Virus record (IMG/VR): IMGVR_UViG_3300005613_000080
Span: 1 to 55,130 of that record
Strand: one strand, 5' to 3'
DNA: 55,130 nt
Source: a virus
Part shown: positions 6,248 through 54,405 of the stretch, in pieces
Position numbering within the stretch: position 1 is the stretch's first letter
Layout: the number at the start of each line of letters is the position of its first letter
The notes under the pieces: generated by a model
Seen by the model: the letters and a program-made list of their open reading frames with translations, nothing else
What the model was told of the DNA's origin: nothing
Databases searched by the model: none
Made by a program: the position numbers and the translations under genes

Positions 6248-6847
6248 TTACAGGTAGCGAGGGAGGCGCGTCGGTTGCTGTTTGGGCAGCACGTCATGGA
6301 GCTGTTCGATGAGGTCTTCGATGAAGTCGCTAGTTCCATTGTTGACCATCTCGATGGGTGTCACGCCCATGTAGGAGAGGTCGATGTACCCGCGACTGTC
6401 GTTCTTGAACGAGCAGCCGTCTCGGTGCAGGCGCACCAGCCTACAGTGCGCCGCCCCAAAATGATCAACAACTTTTTCGGCTTCTTCAACAAATCCACTG
6501 TCCGTCACGGCAGCGATTGGGGCATCCAAGTCGCGCAGCTCTTGGAGGAGAAGTTCGCCCAGCACGGCTTTCCCATGCTTGGGCTTCAGGTAGTCCTCGC
6601 TGACGGCGATGTATGCCTGCCGGGGTGTGAGGCCTAGGAACTCGTCTGAGGGCTCGTCCTTGCGGTCCTCGAACCAGTCGTGGGGCACCGGGCGTCCGCT
6701 GGTGTAGATGCCGTACAGGCCGTGGGTGCGCTCCTTGAGGATGCGGGCGAACTTCACGGTATGCGCTTCGGCGCACAGGGAAAGCACCGCTCTACCGGCG
6801 TAGTCCTTGCCGCTCCCCGGCGGCCCGTTGAAAAAGATGACCTTCAT
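6248..6847 (-). CDS. Deoxynucleoside monophosphate kinase-like P-loop protein
   Basis: The 199-residue protein opens with a beta strand and Walker A loop, MKVIFFNGPPGSGKD, the signature of NMP kinases. A further conserved phage dNMP-kinase segment is visible (LTPRQAYIAVSEDYLKPKHGK), followed by Arg-rich phosphate-contacting positions (RLVRLHRD). It would phosphorylate dNMPs to dNDPs using ATP, complementing the RNR, dCTP deaminase and deoxynucleotidase encoded elsewhere. ATG at 6847 overlaps the GGDEF stop as ATGA, which fixes the start five codons inside the longest frame. Confidence 0.8.
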   Translation of the reverse strand: MKVIFFNGPPGSGKDYAGRAVLSLCAEAHTVKFARILKERTHGLYGIYTSGRPVPHDWFEDRKDEPSDEFLGLTPRQAYIAVSEDYLKPKHGKAVLGELLLQELRDLDAPIAAVTDSGFVEEAEKVVDHFGAAHCRLVRLHRDGCSFKNDSRGYIDLSYMGVTPIEMVNNGTSDFIEDLIEQLHDVLPKQQPTRLPRYL

Positions 6848-7332
6848 CGACGCTTCTTGCATAGGTACAGGCTCGCGTCGGCTTCCGTCATCGTACTGCC
6901 CACGCCAGCGGAGGCTGACACCTTAGCATCGTCCGACGACCATTGCTGAACTAATCGGTAGATCCGTTGAGCGCCCTCCAGGGAGGGGCACCAGACGACG
7001 AACTCGTCGCCGCCCATGCGAGCTGCGATGCGATCCGTGCCCTGTCGGGTGCTCTGTAGCAGGAACTCGGCGAACTCCACGAGCACTCTGTCGCCGTAGC
7101 GATGCCCCTCGGGGTGTACGTCCTGGGCCTGCTTGAACCCATCGAGGTCGGCCACGACAAAGAACCCGCCGCGACCTTGGGTGCGCTCCTCGACGTAACG
7201 CCGGTTGTGGATGCCCGTGAGCGAGTCCGTGTAGGCGAGCGTGTAGAGCTTGCGGTTGGCCTCGGTCAGTGCCTCGACGGCACGCATCAGTTCAGAGGTA
7301 GTGTTGTTCATCATGTCAGAGTCATCGGCCAC
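6844..7332 (-). CDS. GGDEF-domain protein (putative diguanylate cyclase)
   Basis: The 162-residue protein is essentially a bare GGDEF domain. It shows TDSLTGIHNRR (35-45), the metal-binding ADLDGFK (61-67, Asp62), GHRYGDRVL (77-84), the active-site MGGDEF (106-111) and a shortened C-terminus SAGVG...ADASLY. Such enzymes join two GTP into cyclic di-GMP. Two features call for caution: the guanine-contacting Asn of FKxIND is Gln here (FKQAQD), and the RxxD inhibitory site is absent. Only a short N-terminal coiled helix precedes the domain, so dimerisation must be intrinsic. The start is a GTG; ATGs at 7314 and 7311 are alternatives. It is coupled to the dNMP kinase. Confidence 0.85.
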   Translation of the reverse strand: MADDSDMMNNTTSELMRAVEALTEANRKLYTLAYTDSLTGIHNRRYVEERTQGRGGFFVVADLDGFKQAQDVHPEGHRYGDRVLVEFAEFLLQSTRQGTDRIAARMGGDEFVVWCPSLEGAQRIYRLVQQWSSDDAKVSASAGVGSTMTEADASLYLCKKRR

Positions 7333-7347: not shown

Positions 7348-7935
7348 TTAGTCCTTTTCGGACCAGATCGCGTCTACCACGCCCCACTCGATAGCCGTCT
7401 CGGAATCAAAGTAGCGGTCGGTCTTGGCGTCGAACAGTCGCCGCCAGTGTCGGCGGTCTTTGTTGGTGTAGCGAGCCAGCAGCTTGGCGTAGTTCTCCAT
7501 CATACCCTTTGCCATATCAGCTTCAACAACCAGCTCAACAGGGCGGCCCTCCACATCAGAGACGCGAACATCGTGCAGCATGAACGTCGTGCTTTCCGTG
7601 GTGTAGCGGTGGCCCTGCTTTCCGCACGCCACGAGCAGCGGCGCTGCCGACATACACTTGCCCAAGGCGCACGTCACCACGTCACACTTGATCGTGCGCG
7701 TCACATCGTGCAGGGCGAACGACTCATCAAGGTGGCCGCCGTAGGAAGAGACATACAGCTCGATGGGCTTGCGGCTGATGTCCGCGAGCATATACAGCCC
7801 ACGGATAGCCATGCCGATGGTGTTCTCGTCGATGGAGCCGTGCAACCAGATACGCCGACCAAAGATGTCGATGCCGTGCTCAAGCGCAGCCTCGATACCC
7901 GCTCTCTGGAACTCGTACCTGTCCTGGTCACTCAT
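7348..7935 (-). CDS. ClpP-like serine protease
   Basis: The 195-residue protein has the ClpP/crotonase fold signature: IELYVSSYGGHLDESFALHD, then the nucleophile Ser96 in LGKCMSAAP, His121 in FMLHDV, and Asp173 in KTDRYF. These numbers almost coincide with E. coli ClpP Ser97/His122/Asp171, so the triad looks intact. In many phages such enzymes are prohead proteases, but here a separate protease lies with the scaffold (43497-44378) and this gene sits among early accessory genes. It may form a mixed or alternative ClpP, possibly with host Clp ATPases. It overlaps the phosphoesterase gene by 8 bp. Confidence 0.85.
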   Translation of the reverse strand: MSDQDRYEFQRAGIEAALEHGIDIFGRRIWLHGSIDENTIGMAIRGLYMLADISRKPIELYVSSYGGHLDESFALHDVTRTIKCDVVTCALGKCMSAAPLLVACGKQGHRYTTESTTFMLHDVRVSDVEGRPVELVVEADMAKGMMENYAKLLARYTNKDRRHWRRLFDAKTDRYFDSETAIEWGVVDAIWSEKD

Positions 7936-9253
7936 ACGACGCCATGCGGGCCTTGGCCCGCTTCAGCCAGAACTTGCGCGTGTCTTCGACGCCGCTCGGG
8001 TATCGCCCTGTCGCACGGAACGACCAGCCGTTCGCGAAGCACTCGCCCAGCGTGGTATCGACGCCCGTGACGTTGATGGCGCGACGGCCCTTCTCAGCGA
8101 TCACGAATCCACGGCTCCAGGCGGGGCGGTTGCCCTTGACGTAGTATTTCGCCACCTCGTCGATGACGCCGCCATGCGAGCACGTCCAGCTCATGTGCCG
8201 CAGCCCGGAGTTCGGGCCGATGACTTGCTGGAAGCGGTGGACGTGCCCGGAGATGCCCGCTCCGTGACTGCCCTTGGGCAGCCCCATATCCACCCAGTCC
8301 AGTAGCTCGGCCATCGCCGGGAACTTGCCGACCTTGGTGCCGTGCGTGACCTGGATCTGCTCCCACAGGGTCGCCCTGGGCACCGCGTCCTCCTGCCCAG
8401 GGGGCGCTAGGAACGATCCGCCGTGAGCCAGCTCGATGTCGAGTTCTTCGAGGTTGAGCTGCTTGTCGATCCGCATCGAGCGCAGGTTCGCCAGCGCGGG
8501 GTCCGTCTGCGTCAGGTGACGAACGATGCGATCGGTCCAGTGGTTTGAGGCCGTCCAGACGAAGCGCGAGCTAGGACACAGCTCGCGGGCCTCTTCGAGC
8601 ATGGCCCGGAAGAAGTCCAGCTCGACCTGGAGCCGGGTGCTGAATCCATAGGGCTTCGGATGCGAGCTGATCTCGGAGCCGTCGATGTGGTCGCCGCCCC
8701 AGACGATCACGTCAGGCTGCGCGTGGTCGATGAAGTCCAGGAACGCGAGCCAAGTAACCGGGTCCATGAACAGCGAGTGCGTGTCGCTGATGAACGCCAG
8801 CAGCTTTGACTTCTCGGTCGCCCGCCGCAGCTCGGGGAACTGATCGACGTAGGGCAGCAGGTAGCGTTGGTAGTACCGCGCATCGTGCTCGCGGCGCGAG
8901 TCGAGCGTGCGGACGTGCAGCAGGCGTTGGTCGCCCACCGTGGGCACGAGGCCCGCCATCTGCTTGATGTGCTCGAAGCGCCCGTGTTCAAGAACGAACT
9001 CGATGGGGTAGTGCCCGTAAAGCTCGTAGCGCCGTCGAGAGATCGACCGGAACTCGTGGTACGGGTTGGTGTCCTTATCCTCCGCGACCCGCACCACGTC
9101 CGCGAGGATGTCTTCGAGCGATGGTGGCGTCTGGGCCTTGCCCGCCCGTTCCCGTTCCAGTCGAGCCTCATCGCGAGCCTTGCGCTCTTTGATCTTCTTT
9201 AGCTCGCGCTCGTTCTCGACCACCTCCTCGGGGGCCGAGAGAAACCTGTCCAC
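7928..9253 (-). CDS. Calcineurin-like metallophosphoesterase
   Basis: The 441-residue protein contains all metallophosphoesterase motifs in order: ISDTH, VIVWGGDHIDG, ASNHWTDR, VTHG and SGHVHR, which provide the two-metal ligands. A charged helical N-terminus (ERELKKIKERKARDEARLERER) precedes the domain. Substrates of the family range from nucleic acids (SbcD, LigD-type) to proteins and nucleotides. GTG at 9253 is chosen because AAGG lies about 11 bases upstream and it follows the previous stop; a TTG at 9286 is an alternative. Its place next to ClpP and GGDEF genes suggests a host-interaction or nucleotide role, by inference. Confidence 0.8.
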   Translation of the reverse strand: MDRFLSAPEEVVENERELKKIKERKARDEARLERERAGKAQTPPSLEDILADVVRVAEDKDTNPYHEFRSISRRRYELYGHYPIEFVLEHGRFEHIKQMAGLVPTVGDQRLLHVRTLDSRREHDARYYQRYLLPYVDQFPELRRATEKSKLLAFISDTHSLFMDPVTWLAFLDFIDHAQPDVIVWGGDHIDGSEISSHPKPYGFSTRLQVELDFFRAMLEEARELCPSSRFVWTASNHWTDRIVRHLTQTDPALANLRSMRIDKQLNLEELDIELAHGGSFLAPPGQEDAVPRATLWEQIQVTHGTKVGKFPAMAELLDWVDMGLPKGSHGAGISGHVHRFQQVIGPNSGLRHMSWTCSHGGVIDEVAKYYVKGNRPAWSRGFVIAEKGRRAINVTGVDTTLGECFANGWSFRATGRYPSGVEDTRKFWLKRAKARMASYE

Positions 9254-9266
9254 TGCTGATTCAGCC

Positions 9267-9545
9267 TTATTTCGTCTCGATGCCAAGACAGTCCCCTGCG
9301 TGTTTGAGCACCGCACGCCACTTGTACGGATAGTCAAAATCGCCGCGCACGATGACGTGCTCGGCGAAGGTTCGCCAGGGGACCGTGGTACGCCCATCCT
9401 CGCGGCACTGGGCAAAGTAGCGGAGCGCGTCGTCGATCTGCTGTCGATTCGATAGCTGGCAGGTAGCGCACACGCCGCCCCCCTGATGGCGTGCTGCTTC
9501 CGGCGAGCGAAGGAATGCTTCGACAGCTTGTTTCGGGTCAGCCAT
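9267..9545 (-). CDS. Small Cys/His protein, possible zinc finger
   Basis: The 92-residue product starts MADPKQAVEAFL, overlapping the upstream gene by 8 bp; a start 30 bases earlier is possible. It contains CATC near residue 26 and a distal HAGDC (residues ~82-86), the layout of a CCHC-type zinc site. Between them lie a helix RQQIDDALRYF and the aromatic motif VPWRTFAEHV. A DNA-binding or structural zinc module seems likely. No family name is assigned. Confidence 0.55.
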   Translation of the reverse strand: MADPKQAVEAFLRSPEAARHQGGGVCATCQLSNRQQIDDALRYFAQCREDGRTTVPWRTFAEHVIVRGDFDYPYKWRAVLKHAGDCLGIETK

Positions 9546-10149
9546 CGTTTGTGATGTATGCGCCCAGGACGGCACGGGGGCCGCCAGCCGAATCAGTGGC
9601 GTCTCTCACGTCGATCAGTCCGTGCTCCGCTTTGCAACATCCATCGGCGTCAACGGTAAACCGAAGTCTGACAGCCTCTTGGGCACCAATGGCACGGGAC
9701 AATCGTACAAGCAGTTCGGCATCCAGGCAAATCTCCACCGTGCGCCCAGATGACGATTCTGCATCTACCGTATCGAGGATAGCTCGAAACGGGGGCAGGT
9801 TGCCGGGCCACGGTCGCTCCATGCGGACCCAGGGCTTGTCGTCTGCCCGCTGGGCCTCGACGGCGAAGTCCGAGACGATGGACAGCCTGCCTTCTCCCTT
9901 CGTGCCCTGAGACGCCTCCTGGACGGCCTTGGTGGGCAGCAGGCCCGTGGGCGGGTCCTCGTCCATCTCAAGGCGCGGGAGGTCCGCACCGGGCCTCTCG
10001 TCGTGTCGTAGGACGGGCACGACTGCCAGCCCAGCTCCGAAGGTGGCGACGAGGTGATCCCCGTGCGCCTGTACCACATCACATTGGTACGGTTCGGTGG
10101 GCTTCGGGGCGGCGGCTTCGTGGAGCTTGATTCGTTTGGGCCAGCGCAT
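9538..10149 (-). CDS. Putative sliding-clamp-like protein
   Basis: The 203-residue protein shows a faint resemblance to phage proteins related to DNA polymerase III beta-clamp domains. It has GAGLAVVPVLRHDE (like the clamp ATDGHRLA-type strand), GLLPTKAVQEAS, FRAILDTVDAE and EICLDAELLVRLSRAIG, a beta-strand and helix order typical of one or two clamp domains. At this size it would need to trimerise to make a ring. It lies just downstream of the primase and HTH genes, which suits a replication factor. The assignment rests on pattern memory, so it should be treated as a hypothesis. Confidence 0.35.
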   Translation of the reverse strand: MRWPKRIKLHEAAAPKPTEPYQCDVVQAHGDHLVATFGAGLAVVPVLRHDERPGADLPRLEMDEDPPTGLLPTKAVQEASQGTKGEGRLSIVSDFAVEAQRADDKPWVRMERPWPGNLPPFRAILDTVDAESSSGRTVEICLDAELLVRLSRAIGAQEAVRLRFTVDADGCCKAEHGLIDVRDATDSAGGPRAVLGAYITNDG

Positions 10150-10152
10150 TAG

Positions 10153-10335
10153 TCATTCTCCTTGAGTCTGTCGATCGATCTCGCAGCCAGGGGAAAACTC
10201 GGCCCCGCGCAAGTCGGCCCCGACCAATCTGGCCTCGCGCAAGTCGGCTGTCGAGCAGCATGGCTTTGTGTGGGTGTCAGAGAAGGGGAGGACCGTTTGG
10301 CGATGCACCCAAGATAGCAAGCTATCGGAGGGCAT
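10153..10335 (-). CDS. Short pentapeptide-repeat protein or remnant
   Basis: The 60-residue product (ATG at 10335, TGATG overlap with the HTH gene; a TTG one codon earlier is also possible) ends with three or four pentapeptide units, ADLREARLVGADLRGAEF, and the cap SPGCEI. This cap matches the FFPGWKI end of the 22-repeat protein at 2000-2446. The N-terminal ~33 residues are unrelated and unrecognised. It is either a mini-member of the family or what remains after loss of repeats. It is separated from the clamp-like gene by 3 bp. Confidence 0.55.
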   Translation of the reverse strand: MPSDSLLSWVHRQTVLPFSDTHTKPCCSTADLREARLVGADLRGAEFSPGCEIDRQTQGE

Positions 10336-10733
10336 CAACGGTCATCTTGAACTTTTTTTCCGTCCTCGCCTCGGCCAGCTCGACGGGCCACGTTCTGCCG
10401 CCCCATCTGCTCCAAGCGGCTCACAGACTTCTTGAGCTTCAACTGGTGCGCCTTCGAGGCCACGCTCTTGACGGTGCGCCCGACCCGTCGAGCGATTTCC
10501 AGGTTGTCCGTGTCGGGGTACAGGTCAATCAGCATCGAAAGCTGTTCATGGGTCCATCGCGGCATCCGGCGACCCCTGAAAGCGGCCTTGTCCTTGCCCA
10601 ACGCAAGAGAGCGGGCCGTATCCTCAATGTGCGAGACCGTGACGCCAAAATACCGCGCCAGCTCGCGGTCGCTGCGTCGTCCGTAAAGCAGCTTGAGCTG
10701 CTGCACTTGCTCTTGCGTGAGTTGGTAGGTCAT
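10335..10733 (-). CDS. Double helix-turn-helix DNA-binding protein
   Basis: The 132-residue protein has two similar HTH/SANT-like units. The first is about residues 5-40 (LKLLYGRRSDRELARYFGVTVSHIEDTAR) and the second about 58-100 (WTHEQLSMLIDLYPDTDNLEIARRVGRTVKSVASKA). Each ends in the turn G(V/R)TV.(S/K)(H/S)(I/V). The tail is highly basic. Such proteins are common in phage replication modules and probably bind phage DNA as regulators or structural factors. It starts one base after the primase stop codon. Confidence 0.65.
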   Translation of the reverse strand: MTYQLTQEQVQQLKLLYGRRSDRELARYFGVTVSHIEDTARSLALGKDKAAFRGRRMPRWTHEQLSMLIDLYPDTDNLEIARRVGRTVKSVASKAHQLKLKKSVSRLEQMGRQNVARRAGRGEDGKKVQDDR

Positions 10734-10734
10734 C

Positions 10735-13095
10735 CTAGAACGGCTCGTAATGGATTGGGTCCTGGTTGATCGTTTCGAGACTCAGGTGCCAGTTGTGCGG
10801 TCCCCCGAAGTCGGAGTCGAAGTGCGCTCGCGCTTCTTCCAGAGTAGGCAACCTATAGGCACGGGGCCTGTCAATCGTTCGCTGATCTCCTGTCTCTGTC
10901 ACCACCATCATCTGCCGCCCAAGCTGAACGCGATTCACTCCATTCGGCAATAGACGCTTTAGCGCCTGTCCCAGCTTGGTCGCGCCGGATCGATAGTGAA
11001 TGTTATATGTCCGAAGATACTGCACAAAGTCATATGCCAAGTTTGAGCATACGACATAGGGGGGCCAGCCCTCGCCAGGGAAAAGCTCACCATCCAGCAG
11101 CTTGGAGTACCACCACTGTTCTTCGGGACTCATTGAATGCACCTGTTGCTGGCGCAGGGCGTCGGTGTGGGGCACGGCCCGCACATCAAAGCCGTCAAGG
11201 TCAGTATGCAGCAGGTAGTGGAGCAGGGCCTCCTGGCCCCCGTTCTCCATCTCGTCGTCGATGGCCGAGAAGAAAGCCCTGTCTTGCAGGTTCTCGTCGC
11301 TCACTTCCAGCATCAAGAAGCGCCGCTCGTCCGTCCCGGCAGGCACGACCCACTCCTCGTTCGAGGCCATGATGATGTGCAGGTAGTTCCGGGCCGTAAT
11401 CGCGTTGACGCCCTTGCCCTCGATCATCAGCGTGTCTTCGGTGATAAGCGACTTCAGGATCGACTCGTGCTTCTTGTCGCCCGCGTAGAACGCCTCGTCG
11501 GCGAACAGGATCGAGCAGTCCCGCAGATGGGCGTTGAAGCTACCGACGAGGTGCTTGGCATCGACGACCTGGAGGTAGTGCCTGCCGAACAGCCGTCCAA
11601 AGGTGTTTGCGAACTTGCCCTTGCCCGCGCCCTTCTTGCCCTTGAGTACGACCGCGACGTGGCCCTGGCGATCCGGGTGCTGCACGGCGGTCGCCATCCA
11701 GCCCACCAGGTAGCGGTACACGTCCTCGTTGCCAGAGCAGATATTGCGGCGGCAGTGGTCGAGGAACTTCTCGCACGCCCCTGGGCGAGCCTCGACGGAA
11801 AAGCCTTTCCACAGGTTGAAGGCGTCAGGCACGTCGCGACCGGGCACGAACACCACGCGGTCGTACTGCCGCCGCTGCCCGTGGCGAATCCACCAGAGCC
11901 CAAGCGGCATCTCCTTGTCCTCGCCCATCGGGATCAGCACGTTCGAGTAGCGGTTCTTGAAGTCCTCGAACGTCTGGTACGAGAGCACCGACCGTCGCAT
12001 CCCATCGTCGAACGTCTCGCTGATGATGCGGCACTTGCCGCCGATATCGCCGATGACCGCGTGCCGCTCGTTGATCTTGCGGAGCCAGGGGTCGATGGCC
12101 TCTTCCTTCGCCCGCTCGATCTGCCGCAGGGCATATCGCTCGGCACGGCGGCCCTGCTCGATGATCGACTCCGCGATGGCGAACTTGGGGTCCGTCAGGA
12201 CCGAGTAGATCACCGCGTCATCTACGCCCGCCCGCACCAGGGCGCAACAGACGTAGAACACCGCCTCGGAGCGCGACGGGAACCGCTGCGGGTCGTCGGG
12301 GTCGTCGCCCTGGACGATGATCTGCTTGCACTGCTCGGGCACGTTGTCGCCCAGATCATCGACGTGCTCTAGGCGCTGGACGTTCTCGCTCTGGATCTGG
12401 ACGAGGTTGCCCTGAAAGCCCAGGTCGCTGCTGGACTGGACGAGCGGCGCGGGGGTGAACGCCGAGAGCGGATAGACCCGCTCACCGTCGTGGGCGACGA
12501 CCGCCGCGAGCCGGGCGCTGCGGCCCTTGGCGATCTTGTTCGCGTCTGGGCGGTTGATCGTGCCCGGCAGCCGCATGATGCGGTCCACGTTGTGGCACGC
12601 ATCGCCGTCGAACAGGATCTCAAGCTGCTGGTTGTACCGCTTGGCCTCCTCGTACTTCGAGGAGCTGCCCTCGATGGGCATCGGCTCGTCGAGCGTCCAG
12701 TAGGCGTGGTAGCCCCCGCCGCTGTCGATCACCCATGTAGGGGGCGGAACAGACTCAGGAAGCCGCTCCGTCAACAGCTCCAGCGCCCGCGCCCTCTCGA
12801 CCTCTAGCTCTTGCCCAGGGCGCGGGTCGATATCGACGTGCAAGAAGGCCAGGGCTGCGATGTCCTCGCGCTCGGCCTTCTTGCGAACAGGCTTCAGCGT
12901 CGGGTTGACGCTGAAGTAGATGTTGTGATCCTGGCCCCTGCTCTCCAGCCACGCCAGCGCATCGTCAACTTCCGCTGTCGCAAAGGAGCGAGTCTCGATG
13001 CTCTTTTTGTCGGGCTTGATTGCGGTGAGAACCCAGTAGCCAGCAGGCCGGAACGCCTGAAGGAACTCAATGGAGGCGCGGTAGTTGGGAATCAT
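10735..13095 (-). CDS. Primase-helicase (AEP primase plus SF3-type helicase)
   Basis: The 786-residue protein combines priming and unwinding. The N-terminal archaeo-eukaryotic primase domain has HVDID (86-90), SGGGYH (125-130) and the RIMRLPGTIN motif (about 173-182). The C-terminal ATPase has Walker A GKKGAGKG (486-493), Walker B FADEAF (531-536), sensor Asn579 in MASNEE and the arginine finger in GTDERR (587-592), typical of phage and plasmid SF3 helicases of the D5/DUF5906 kind. It would unwind and prime the fork for the family A polymerase. It overlaps the nuclease gene by 4 bp. Motifs are complete, so activity is expected. Confidence 0.9.
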   Translation of the reverse strand: MIPNYRASIEFLQAFRPAGYWVLTAIKPDKKSIETRSFATAEVDDALAWLESRGQDHNIYFSVNPTLKPVRKKAEREDIAALAFLHVDIDPRPGQELEVERARALELLTERLPESVPPPTWVIDSGGGYHAYWTLDEPMPIEGSSSKYEEAKRYNQQLEILFDGDACHNVDRIMRLPGTINRPDANKIAKGRSARLAAVVAHDGERVYPLSAFTPAPLVQSSSDLGFQGNLVQIQSENVQRLEHVDDLGDNVPEQCKQIIVQGDDPDDPQRFPSRSEAVFYVCCALVRAGVDDAVIYSVLTDPKFAIAESIIEQGRRAERYALRQIERAKEEAIDPWLRKINERHAVIGDIGGKCRIISETFDDGMRRSVLSYQTFEDFKNRYSNVLIPMGEDKEMPLGLWWIRHGQRRQYDRVVFVPGRDVPDAFNLWKGFSVEARPGACEKFLDHCRRNICSGNEDVYRYLVGWMATAVQHPDRQGHVAVVLKGKKGAGKGKFANTFGRLFGRHYLQVVDAKHLVGSFNAHLRDCSILFADEAFYAGDKKHESILKSLITEDTLMIEGKGVNAITARNYLHIIMASNEEWVVPAGTDERRFLMLEVSDENLQDRAFFSAIDDEMENGGQEALLHYLLHTDLDGFDVRAVPHTDALRQQQVHSMSPEEQWWYSKLLDGELFPGEGWPPYVVCSNLAYDFVQYLRTYNIHYRSGATKLGQALKRLLPNGVNRVQLGRQMMVVTETGDQRTIDRPRAYRLPTLEEARAHFDSDFGGPHNWHLSLETINQDPIHYEPF

Positions 13096-19903: not shown

Positions 19904-20170
19904 CTAGTCCTCCCTCTCCGCAACACACGCAGCACAACGACGACAAGGGAATGAGCCATCATTCGTCTGCTGTGGGCTGTAGCACGTCCAAGTAGCATCG
20001 TATGGCGCATCGCTGCTCTTGAGTTCCGCAACAATCGCCGCCTTGCTCAAGCTAATCAACGGCGTATGTACCGCAACGCCGGGAAGCGCAGTCCAGCTGC
20101 ATCGAGCATGTCGGTTATCTCTTCCGTCTTCGTTACCACTCCTTGACCCACCTGTGGCGGCGATTGCCAC
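19904..20170 (-). CDS. QueC C-terminal-like zinc module (truncated 7-cyano-7-deazaguanine synthase?)
   Basis: The last ~55 residues of this 88-codon frame read like the end of QueC: HTPLISLSKAAIV, then TWTCYSP, then PCRRCAACVAER, supplying the four zinc cysteines (C plus CxxCxxC). QueC makes preQ0 for queuosine or 7-deazaguanine DNA modification. The whole N-terminal PP-loop ATPase domain, with its SGGxDS motif, is missing, and I cannot find it in any frame upstream. The start is uncertain: GTG 20170 lies inside the Mom-like gene. An alternative 27-codon frame from GTG 20139 ends at 20056. Either a remnant of a lost queC or a stand-alone zinc peptide. Confidence 0.5.
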   Translation of the reverse strand: MAIAATGGSRSGNEDGRDNRHARCSWTALPGVAVHTPLISLSKAAIVAELKSSDAPYDATWTCYSPQQTNDGSFPCRRCAACVAERED

Positions 20171-20774
20171 TCTTCCAGACCTTGTTCATCGGAACTCTCT
20201 TCCAACCAAATGACTCCATGTGCTCCCTCTCACTTCCGAGGTCACACACCCTGTGGACGAAGCGGATAATCTCGGACCTGCCCGCCAACTGGATCCCTTC
20301 TTTTCGCGTACCGCCATTGGAGTAGACGGACCTTCGGCTTCCGCTGGCGTCGATCCACTTCTGGCTCATGCGACTCCCGTCTCGGCTCATGCCCGCACAC
20401 TTGTATACGTTGCCACAGTGGCCCTCTCCCACATCAGCATAGGTCACGACGACAGGATATCTTCCGCGATCAATGCCGTTCTTCAGAATCCACCTCAAGG
20501 GCTTCGAGATGTGCCAGTTTCTCTCAGACTTAGGTACAGCGACCATGCGCGACAAACTGGTAGCCCCTTGAGGTTCGCCAGGACTAACGGCCTTTGCGGA
20601 ACCGTAAGGGGGGGGCTGGAAGATCCAGGCAGCTACGACCTGGGAGTTCGAGTCGCGGCACACCCACACATGACCTGTAGAACCCATACTCTTGTAGGGG
20701 TGATACTTATCGATCAGATCCCGCACACTATCGAAAGTTGACGGTTCGGGCAAAGGCCACTTCCTATCCATCAT
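20133..20774 (-). CDS. Mom-like GNAT-fold DNA-modification protein
   Basis: The 213-residue protein fits the phage Mom-like family: an N-terminal strand GHVWVCRDSNSQVVAAWIF, then TSLSRMVAVPKSERNWHISKPLRWIL, then VVVTYADVGEGHCGNVYKC, and a C-terminus ending RHRWVKEW. In phage Mu, Mom converts adenine to a carbamoylmethyl form that blocks restriction. Relatives in many phages are uncharacterised. ATG at 20774 overlaps the stop of the 47-codon gene as ATGA; a GTG at 20783 is also open. Nearby Dam-like methylase and QueC-like fragment make a DNA-modification island likely. Substrate and product are inference. Confidence 0.6.
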   Translation of the reverse strand: MMDRKWPLPEPSTFDSVRDLIDKYHPYKSMGSTGHVWVCRDSNSQVVAAWIFQPPPYGSAKAVSPGEPQGATSLSRMVAVPKSERNWHISKPLRWILKNGIDRGRYPVVVTYADVGEGHCGNVYKCAGMSRDGSRMSQKWIDASGSRRSVYSNGGTRKEGIQLAGRSEIIRFVHRVCDLGSEREHMESFGWKRVPMNKVWKSGNRRHRWVKEW

Positions 20775-20914
20775 ACGCTCCACTCGTCAGATGCTTCTCT
20801 GGTGCCAGCGAACTCCTGATCACCACCCACGCCACTCATCGCCAGCAGGTCGGCGGCGGTTCTTGTGGTGTTGTTCACAGCGCGTCTCATCTCCTCGAAA
20901 CCAGCCCGTGCCAT
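20771..20914 (-). CDS. 47-residue protein of unknown function
   Basis: The frame from ATG 20914 (MARAGFEEMRRAVNN) ends SDEWSV with its TGA overlapping the Mom-like start as ATGA. The overlap is the main reason to accept it. The product has a helical basic first half and an acidic tail. It begins only about 23 bases after a hairpin with a poly-U tract, so it may be made only when that terminator is bypassed. In Mu, com, a small protein, is coupled to mom translation; this gene has the same relative position but no zinc finger. Confidence 0.4.
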   Translation of the reverse strand: MARAGFEEMRRAVNNTTRTAADLLAMSGVGGDQEFAGTREASDEWSV

Positions 20915-53700: not shown

Positions 53701-54357
53701 TTACTTGCTACCTGCACGGCGTGCAAGTCGGCGCACCATAGCGGCTTGCCAGGGACCTCCCAGGTGGGTCTTGTACCCCTCCTTGTCCATGCGCTCTGCA
53801 ATCTTGCGGTAGGTCATCCCCCTGTCCCGTAGCTCCGCTGCTCGCTCCGCAACCTGATCGGAATACACCGGGTAGCGGCTGAATCGCTTTCCCTCTGCCC
53901 GGAGCTGGGAGAGGGCCATCCGCGTCCGCTCGCTGATCTGGTCCCGCTCGAACTCTGCCAGGACCGCCAGCATACGGAAGACCATCTTGCCCGCAGCCGT
54001 CGTCGTGTCGATCTTCTCCGACAGCGACACCAGCTCGCACTTGGCCTTCTCCAGCTTCTCGGCCAACCACAGCGTGTGCTTCGTCGAGCGGGACAGGCGA
54101 GAGAGACTGTAAATGACAAGTGCGGCATCCTTGGTCTTCCCGACCTTCTCCAGCGCCTCCAGCAGCGCAGGACGGGTCGAGAGCTTCGTACCTGAGATGC
54201 CCCTGTCCTCGTAGAAGTGGACCTCGGCCTCGGGCGCGTTCAGTGAGACCCAGGCGCGGATCTTCTTCCGCTGGGCGCTCAGGCTGATGCCCTCGCGGGC
54301 CTGCTCCTCGGTCGAGACTCTCAGATAGGCGATGACGTGCTTGATGTGTGTGTCCAT
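53701..54357 (-). CDS. Small serine recombinase (resolvase/invertase type)
   Basis: The 218-residue protein has catalytic Ser15 in AYLRVSTEEQ, further conserved region LVIYSLSRLSRS with the essential arginines, the helix AEFERDQISERTRMAL (E-helix), and a short C-terminal DNA-binding tail with HTH residues YRKIAERMDKEG. At this size it is a resolvase/invertase, not a large serine integrase. It could mediate integration, inversion or dimer resolution. ATG 54357 is chosen because the first residues then match the family; longer frame is open to 54405. Half-site repeats lie just upstream. Confidence 0.88.
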   Translation of the reverse strand: MDTHIKHVIAYLRVSTEEQAREGISLSAQRKKIRAWVSLNAPEAEVHFYEDRGISGTKLSTRPALLEALEKVGKTKDAALVIYSLSRLSRSTKHTLWLAEKLEKAKCELVSLSEKIDTTTAAGKMVFRMLAVLAEFERDQISERTRMALSQLRAEGKRFSRYPVYSDQVAERAAELRDRGMTYRKIAERMDKEGYKTHLGGPWQAAMVRRLARRAGSK

Positions 54358-54405
54358 GTGTGTAACCGTAGACACAGTTGTGTCCAAGGTCAAGGGAGCG
54401 GACAC
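54347..54405. promoter_or_regulatory. GGACAC/GTGTCC half-site cluster with palindrome
   Basis: GACACAGTTGTGTC (54371-54384) is a perfect palindrome. More half-sites, GTGTCC (54350-54355), TGTGTCC (54379-54385) and GGACAC (54400-54405), surround it, overlapping the recombinase start. On the minus strand TTGACC followed 17 bases later by TACGGT could be a weak promoter with the palindrome in its spacer. It could be an operator or the recombination site of the adjacent recombinase. Confidence 0.5.

Follow-up and report, generated by a model that had tools for sequence, protein, structure and literature searches.

A bare GGDEF protein encoded by a phage is, as such, already known: gp44 of YuA, gp43 of MP1412, and gp39 of Bordetella phage CN2 (Yuavirus, Vojvodinavirus) are stand-alone GGDEF proteins of about 150 residues. 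The annotation of YuA gp44 reads "contains diguanylate-cyclase domain; putative role in host cell conversion." With respect to such a role, the data from Bordetella LK3 lysogens carrying a YuA-like GGDEF gene pull both ways, in that biofilm is overproduced and yet the lysogens are more motile (PMC8471281). The [SA]GDEF motif of the YuA-type proteins falls inside the accepted signature, because this is given as [GAS]G[DE]E[FY] (PMC6456294). Phage products acting on host c-di-GMP also include the YIP peptides of PB1-like phages, which bind the host cyclase YfiN and, unlike the protein considered here, are not proposed cyclases (PMC9145820).

In GGDEF enzymes, specificity for GTP is attributed to N335 and D344 (PleD numbering; PMC7186502). 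A cross-dimer Arg stacks on the base and favors guanine, and the Glu at the fourth position of the GGDEF motif is the proposed general base across the dimer; in the Hypr enzyme GacA, a cGAMP synthase with a changed base pocket, Asn339 and Ser348 (Asp in diguanylate cyclases) contact the base (PMC6456294). The mCpol enzyme OptS of the Panoptes system and the Cas10 palm have a related palm fold, in which the product depends on a Ser/Asn site in contact with the base (PMC12657218).

Source of the sequence

The window analyzed here is the whole stretch of 55,130 nucleotides of IMG/VR record IMGVR_UViG_3300005613_000080. By gene content, its source is a tailed phage, since terminase, single-stranded DNA-binding protein (SSB), primase, DNA polymerase, ribonucleotide reductase, and serine recombinase genes are all carried. 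The primase shares about 52% identity with its counterparts in Pseudomonas phages such as PaMx11, Ab18, and Epa5, which we take to belong to the Mesyanzhinovviridae, and the window phage is thus Mesyanzhinovviridae-like; the phages encoding YuA gp44-type proteins are of the same family as these closest named relatives. A primase scan also returned two contigs from other metagenomes (L008 and L009) whose primases share 95% and 90% identity with that of the window, and both contigs stop before the GGDEF region. A serine recombinase/integrase-like gene (positions 53701-54405, minus strand; phrog_95, 9e-56) adjoins the terminase end, suggesting that the phage may be temperate. The protein encoded at 20133-20783 (minus strand) matches Mom-like proteins of DNA modification (phrog_1384, E = 5e-7), a hint that the phage DNA is modified.

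PADLOC gave no defense family match for the window GGDEF protein or its two neighbors; a marginal Cas5 match was recorded at positions 579-1073. An Rfam scan of the window was empty, with no c-di-GMP riboswitch seen, as was a tRNA scan, and the annotated genes yielded no c-di-GMP receptor or phosphodiesterase.

The GGDEF gene and its predicted structure

The features of the locus are as follows.

7348..7935, minus strand: ClpP-like protease gene, upstream of the GGDEF gene (Pfam CLP_protease, 1.8e-27)
6844..7332, minus strand: gene for the bare GGDEF protein, start GTG at 7332, stop TGA at 6846-6844, 162 aa
7231..7305, minus strand: N-terminal helix, residues 10-34 (helix 3-27 of the 155-aa model)
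7090..7149, minus strand: base/metal segment, D62 to D81, with Gln at the PleD N335 position and a 2-aa insertion
7000..7017, minus strand: M-GGDEF motif, residues 106-111, GGDEF being intact in 13/13 related proteins
6845..6847, minus strand: start ATG of the dNMP kinase gene, overlapping the GGDEF stop (ATGA), read from the sequence

An earlier sequence-only reading had reported a GGDEF open reading frame at 6844-7332 without naming a strand; the frame is genuine and lies on the minus strand. Assignment of its product to the GGDEF family is far above chance, because the scores exceed the cut-offs for both Pfam GGDEF PF00990 (E = 7.4e-17; 62 bits versus 23.8) and TIGR00254 (60.9 bits versus 37.4). 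The score for GTP cyclohydrolase III (13.8 bits) falls below its cut-off of 21.3. In the alignment, the relatives begin where the window protein has Met8 (ATG 7311), and so the real product is probably about 155 aa long, starting from this conserved ATG. Of the earlier statement that all core motifs fit within 162 residues, the motifs stand and the length is probably an overestimate. In its second half the domain is compact and shorter than in canonical GGDEF proteins, and the position of the Arg446-type residue falls past the C terminus.

An AlphaFold2 model, built from an input of 38 rows comprising only the window and viral contigs, showed a 25-residue N-terminal helix followed by a compact GGDEF fold (pLDDT 96; pTM 0.87). 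The closest solved structures found with Foldseek were WspR, DgcB, SiaD, and PleD (probability of 1.00 for the first three), and among viral models the Bordetella CN1 GGDEF protein was close to the window protein. The window protein shares with these four cellular enzymes the fold, the DxLT, DxD, FK, GD, and GGDEF motifs, and a helical N-terminal linker; it differs from them in the lack of a sensor domain and of a canonical I-site, in the change of Asn335 to Gln with a 2-aa insertion, and in its shorter C-terminal half. Diguanylate cyclase coiled-coil linkers change register (PMC8041772). Ala33 of the window protein lies at -3 from DxLT, the Ala at this position is conserved among the relatives, and our mapping suggests that it corresponds to the register-switch position.

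A virus-only clade of GGDEF proteins

A scan of viral contigs with the window GGDEF protein as the single query gave no matches. Entry to the family came instead through a viral-contig scan with the neighboring ClpP, which led to contig L089, whose GGDEF protein is 47% identical to that of the window and has the same Gln and the same 2-residue insertion (AQD.HP.GH.YGD). Signature and profile scans then enlarged the clade to 13 independent members, one of them from the window, with the near-copies L102 and L103 counted as one. Gln, the 2-residue insertion, and an intact GGDEF motif occur together in 13/13 members, whereas the other aligned GGDEF proteins, from phage records and viral contigs, have Asn in 31/31 cases and the insertion in 0/31. 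The proposed search for relatives with the same Asn-to-Gln change thus found them, the Gln being a fixed trait of the clade, and degraded GGDEF motifs, which had been considered part of an argument against a signaling role, were not seen in the family.

Pattern searches returned no match for Gln without the insertion in 2.9 million viral contigs and none for the clade signature in about 85,000 prokaryote species genomes; these zero counts come from exact patterns, so that a bacterial copy deviating at one fixed position would escape. The general pattern was matched by every known relative other than the window. A tree placed the 13 members in one clade (support, 94/90, or 94/95 after removal of the odd base-recognition segment) and the YuA-type proteins in a separate one (support, 100/100). 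The clade is under purifying selection, with dN/dS values of 0.12-0.40 (about 0.2 in most of the 15 related pairs). Judged by these comparisons, it is a previously undescribed virus-only GGDEF clade distinct from the known bare phage GGDEF proteins. The latter resemble the window protein in the short loop preceding the last helix and are 35-40% identical to it, but they keep Asn335, lack the insertion, have [SA]GDEF rather than GGDEF, and have other gene neighbors. Two other matches were dropped as kin: a gut scaffold (L004) with the best tblastn E-value, which looks bacterial and where the match is a large fusion protein encoded next to housekeeping genes, and a match in Pseudomonas phage Y10, which is an ordinary sensor-GGDEF protein.

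Catalytic residues, base pocket, and feedback site

The base/metal segment of the window protein reads D62-L-D-G-F-K67-Q-A-Q70-D-V-H-P-E-G-H-R-Y-G-D81. MGGDEF at residues 106-111 and the metal ligand Asp62 were found as the sequence-only reading had given them, and its replacement of the guanine-contacting Asn by Gln is borne out, with Q70 occupying the PleD N335 position. Two further changes, absent from that reading and common to the whole clade, are the 2-residue insertion directly on the C-terminal side of the Gln and a 1-residue shift ahead of GGDEF. The metal and catalytic residues of diguanylate cyclases (PleD D327, K332, R366, and GG[DE]EF; window D62, K67, and R105) are present in 13/13 members, and K159 (PleD Lys442) is Lys in 12/13 and Arg in one. 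Among the guanine contacts, D344 (D81) is kept in all 13, as is R44, which from its spacing to DxLT would be the cross-dimer Arg. Because N335 is Gln with a 2-aa insertion in 13/13 members, the window protein is filed as a variant GGDEF protein and a putative diguanylate cyclase. No description of Gln at N335 was found in the literature searched; the change could weaken GTP binding.

The RxxD feedback site is common in diguanylate cyclases and is not essential. Its absence, noted earlier, was confirmed for the window, where no RxxD occurs at -9 to -6 from GGDEF or shifted by one residue. By alignment, the canonical site is absent in 13/13 members, and in 9/13 an RxxD lies one residue further upstream, followed by a one-residue insertion, so product inhibition may persist in some clade members; neither form occurs in the window, L095, L096, or L098.

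Proposed mechanism and competing explanations

We consider it somewhat probable that the gene encodes an active, sensor-less minimal GGDEF cyclase that most likely makes c-di-GMP through a co-adapted base pocket, since all base and catalytic residues except the Asn are kept. Two copies would form a dimer, probably by way of the short N-terminal helix, and each would hold one purine nucleoside triphosphate with metal ions by means of D62, D109/E110, K67, R105, and K159. E110 of one chain would then activate the 3'-OH of the nucleotide held by its partner, yielding a cyclic dinucleotide. Of the possible products c-di-GMP would be the likeliest, because D81, which faces the Watson-Crick side of the base, and R44, the arginine of the NRR motif, are kept and Gln still supplies an amide at the position where the sugar edge is read, and the 2-residue-longer loop probably offsets the longer Gln side chain. 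Output would track the level of expression, as there is no input domain and, in the window member, no I-site, and the host would be pushed to a high c-di-GMP state. Points that count against this reading are the Gln, with its possible weakening of GTP binding, the compact second half of the domain, and the negative outcome for a c-di-GMP riboswitch in the window and for a receptor or phosphodiesterase among the annotated genes. The earlier suggestion that a phage GGDEF protein could act on host cyclic-dinucleotide signaling is supported by the catalytic residues in 13/13 members, the purifying selection, and the confident fold.

The co-occurrence of Gln and the insertion at the base-reading site in 13/13 members, with no viral match for Gln alone, could instead indicate an active enzyme with a retuned pocket, whose product is not c-di-GMP but 3',3'-cGAMP, c-di-AMP, or an unusual or modified purine derivative and might serve as a decoy or competitor in cyclic-nucleotide defense. 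Indeed, a Ser/Asn swap in mCpol OptS shifts the adenine/guanine product ratio (PMC12657218). OptS differs in that its GGDEF motif is nearly gone and it is a bacterial defense gene with an effector partner, whereas the motif of the window protein is intact. We regard such retuning as unlikely, although it is the first alternative to be weighed: the guanine-favoring D81 and R44 are kept in 13/13 members, whereas Hypr enzymes have Asp344 changed to Ser and the cross-dimer Arg changed to Tyr, and GacA keeps the Asn (Asn339) that the window protein changes (PMC6456294). Moreover, neither the GGDEF protein nor its neighbors gave a defense-system match. That a phage-only clade with a rebuilt pocket makes another dinucleotide or uses a non-standard purine against host signaling or cyclic-nucleotide defense is, in this specific form, quite doubtful.

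Also rather unlikely is a dead or very weak GGDEF protein that acts as a sponge for GTP or c-di-GMP or as a binder and regulator of a host diguanylate cyclase. The changed base contact, the shortened C-terminal half, and the precedent of phage peptides that bind YfiN (PMC9145820) would fit such a protein. Against it, every catalytic residue, E110 as the general base among them, is retained by 13/13 members under purifying selection, and the window protein lacks an RxxD site for binding c-di-GMP. Degenerate GGDEF proteins usually lose catalytic residues.

Gene neighborhood

The 13 genes fall in two groups of phages without common neighbors. In group 1 (the window and L095-L098), the gene order over the stretches that the contigs cover is metallophosphoesterase, ClpP, GGDEF, dNMP kinase, SSB. 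ClpP adjoins the GGDEF gene in 4/5 of these phages, the fifth contig stopping short of the site. By eye, the window ClpP retains the Ser and His positions of its motifs (GKCMSAAP and MLHD), and its gene lies outside any head-gene cluster. In group 2 (L099-L102, L104, L111, L112, and L114), none of the window's other proteins was found near the GGDEF gene, there was no related large terminase, the flanks examined held no homologue of the window dNMP kinase, and two contigs carry phage tail and DNA polymerase or helicase genes. Because the gene occurs in two phage groups that share no neighbors, it likely works alone, without a fixed partner. Four group 2 contigs have a small open reading frame shortly upstream of GGDEF (L100, 9708-9983; L101, 1140-1550; L102, 9346-9678; L104, 9111-9398), with a common C-terminal PD.[MVL]P..L-like tail.

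The gene downstream of GGDEF in the window is a dNMP kinase gene (phrog_139, E = 2e-30). The translational coupling proposed earlier is present as the ATGA overlap, but the early expression deduced from it is weakly founded, because only the window has the overlap: L095-L098 keep the gene order, but with 1.1-3.6 kb between the GGDEF and kinase genes. In L089, MazG-like and GIY-YIG-like open reading frames (identified by eye) lie between GGDEF and the kinase gene at 9089-10869, showing how the spacing changes.

PopA is a GGDEF protein that serves ClpXP in Caulobacter, and ClpP lies just upstream in the window and 32-46 bases upstream in L095, L097, and L098, where the order is kept; a PopA-like adaptor or regulator of the phage ClpP is nonetheless very improbable, since ClpP is not adjacent in any of the eight relatives from other phages, and only one of these has a ClpP anywhere on its contig. 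Equally hard to credit is a nucleotide-metabolism enzyme that would process (d)NTPs with the GGDEF fold: genes for a dNMP kinase, a dCTP deaminase, and a dNMP phosphatase are nearby, and nucleotide-metabolism genes lie some kilobases away in both groups, but such genes are common in most phage early regions, the GTP cyclohydrolase III match is under its cut-off, and the GGDEF motif is intact.

Implications

At about 155 residues, the window protein is a very small complete GGDEF protein. A clade with a fixed Gln and the same insertion under purifying selection amounts to a natural experiment on GGDEF base specificity, and a small phage GGDEF protein of this kind is useful for asking whether phages write second-messenger signals or merely read or block them.
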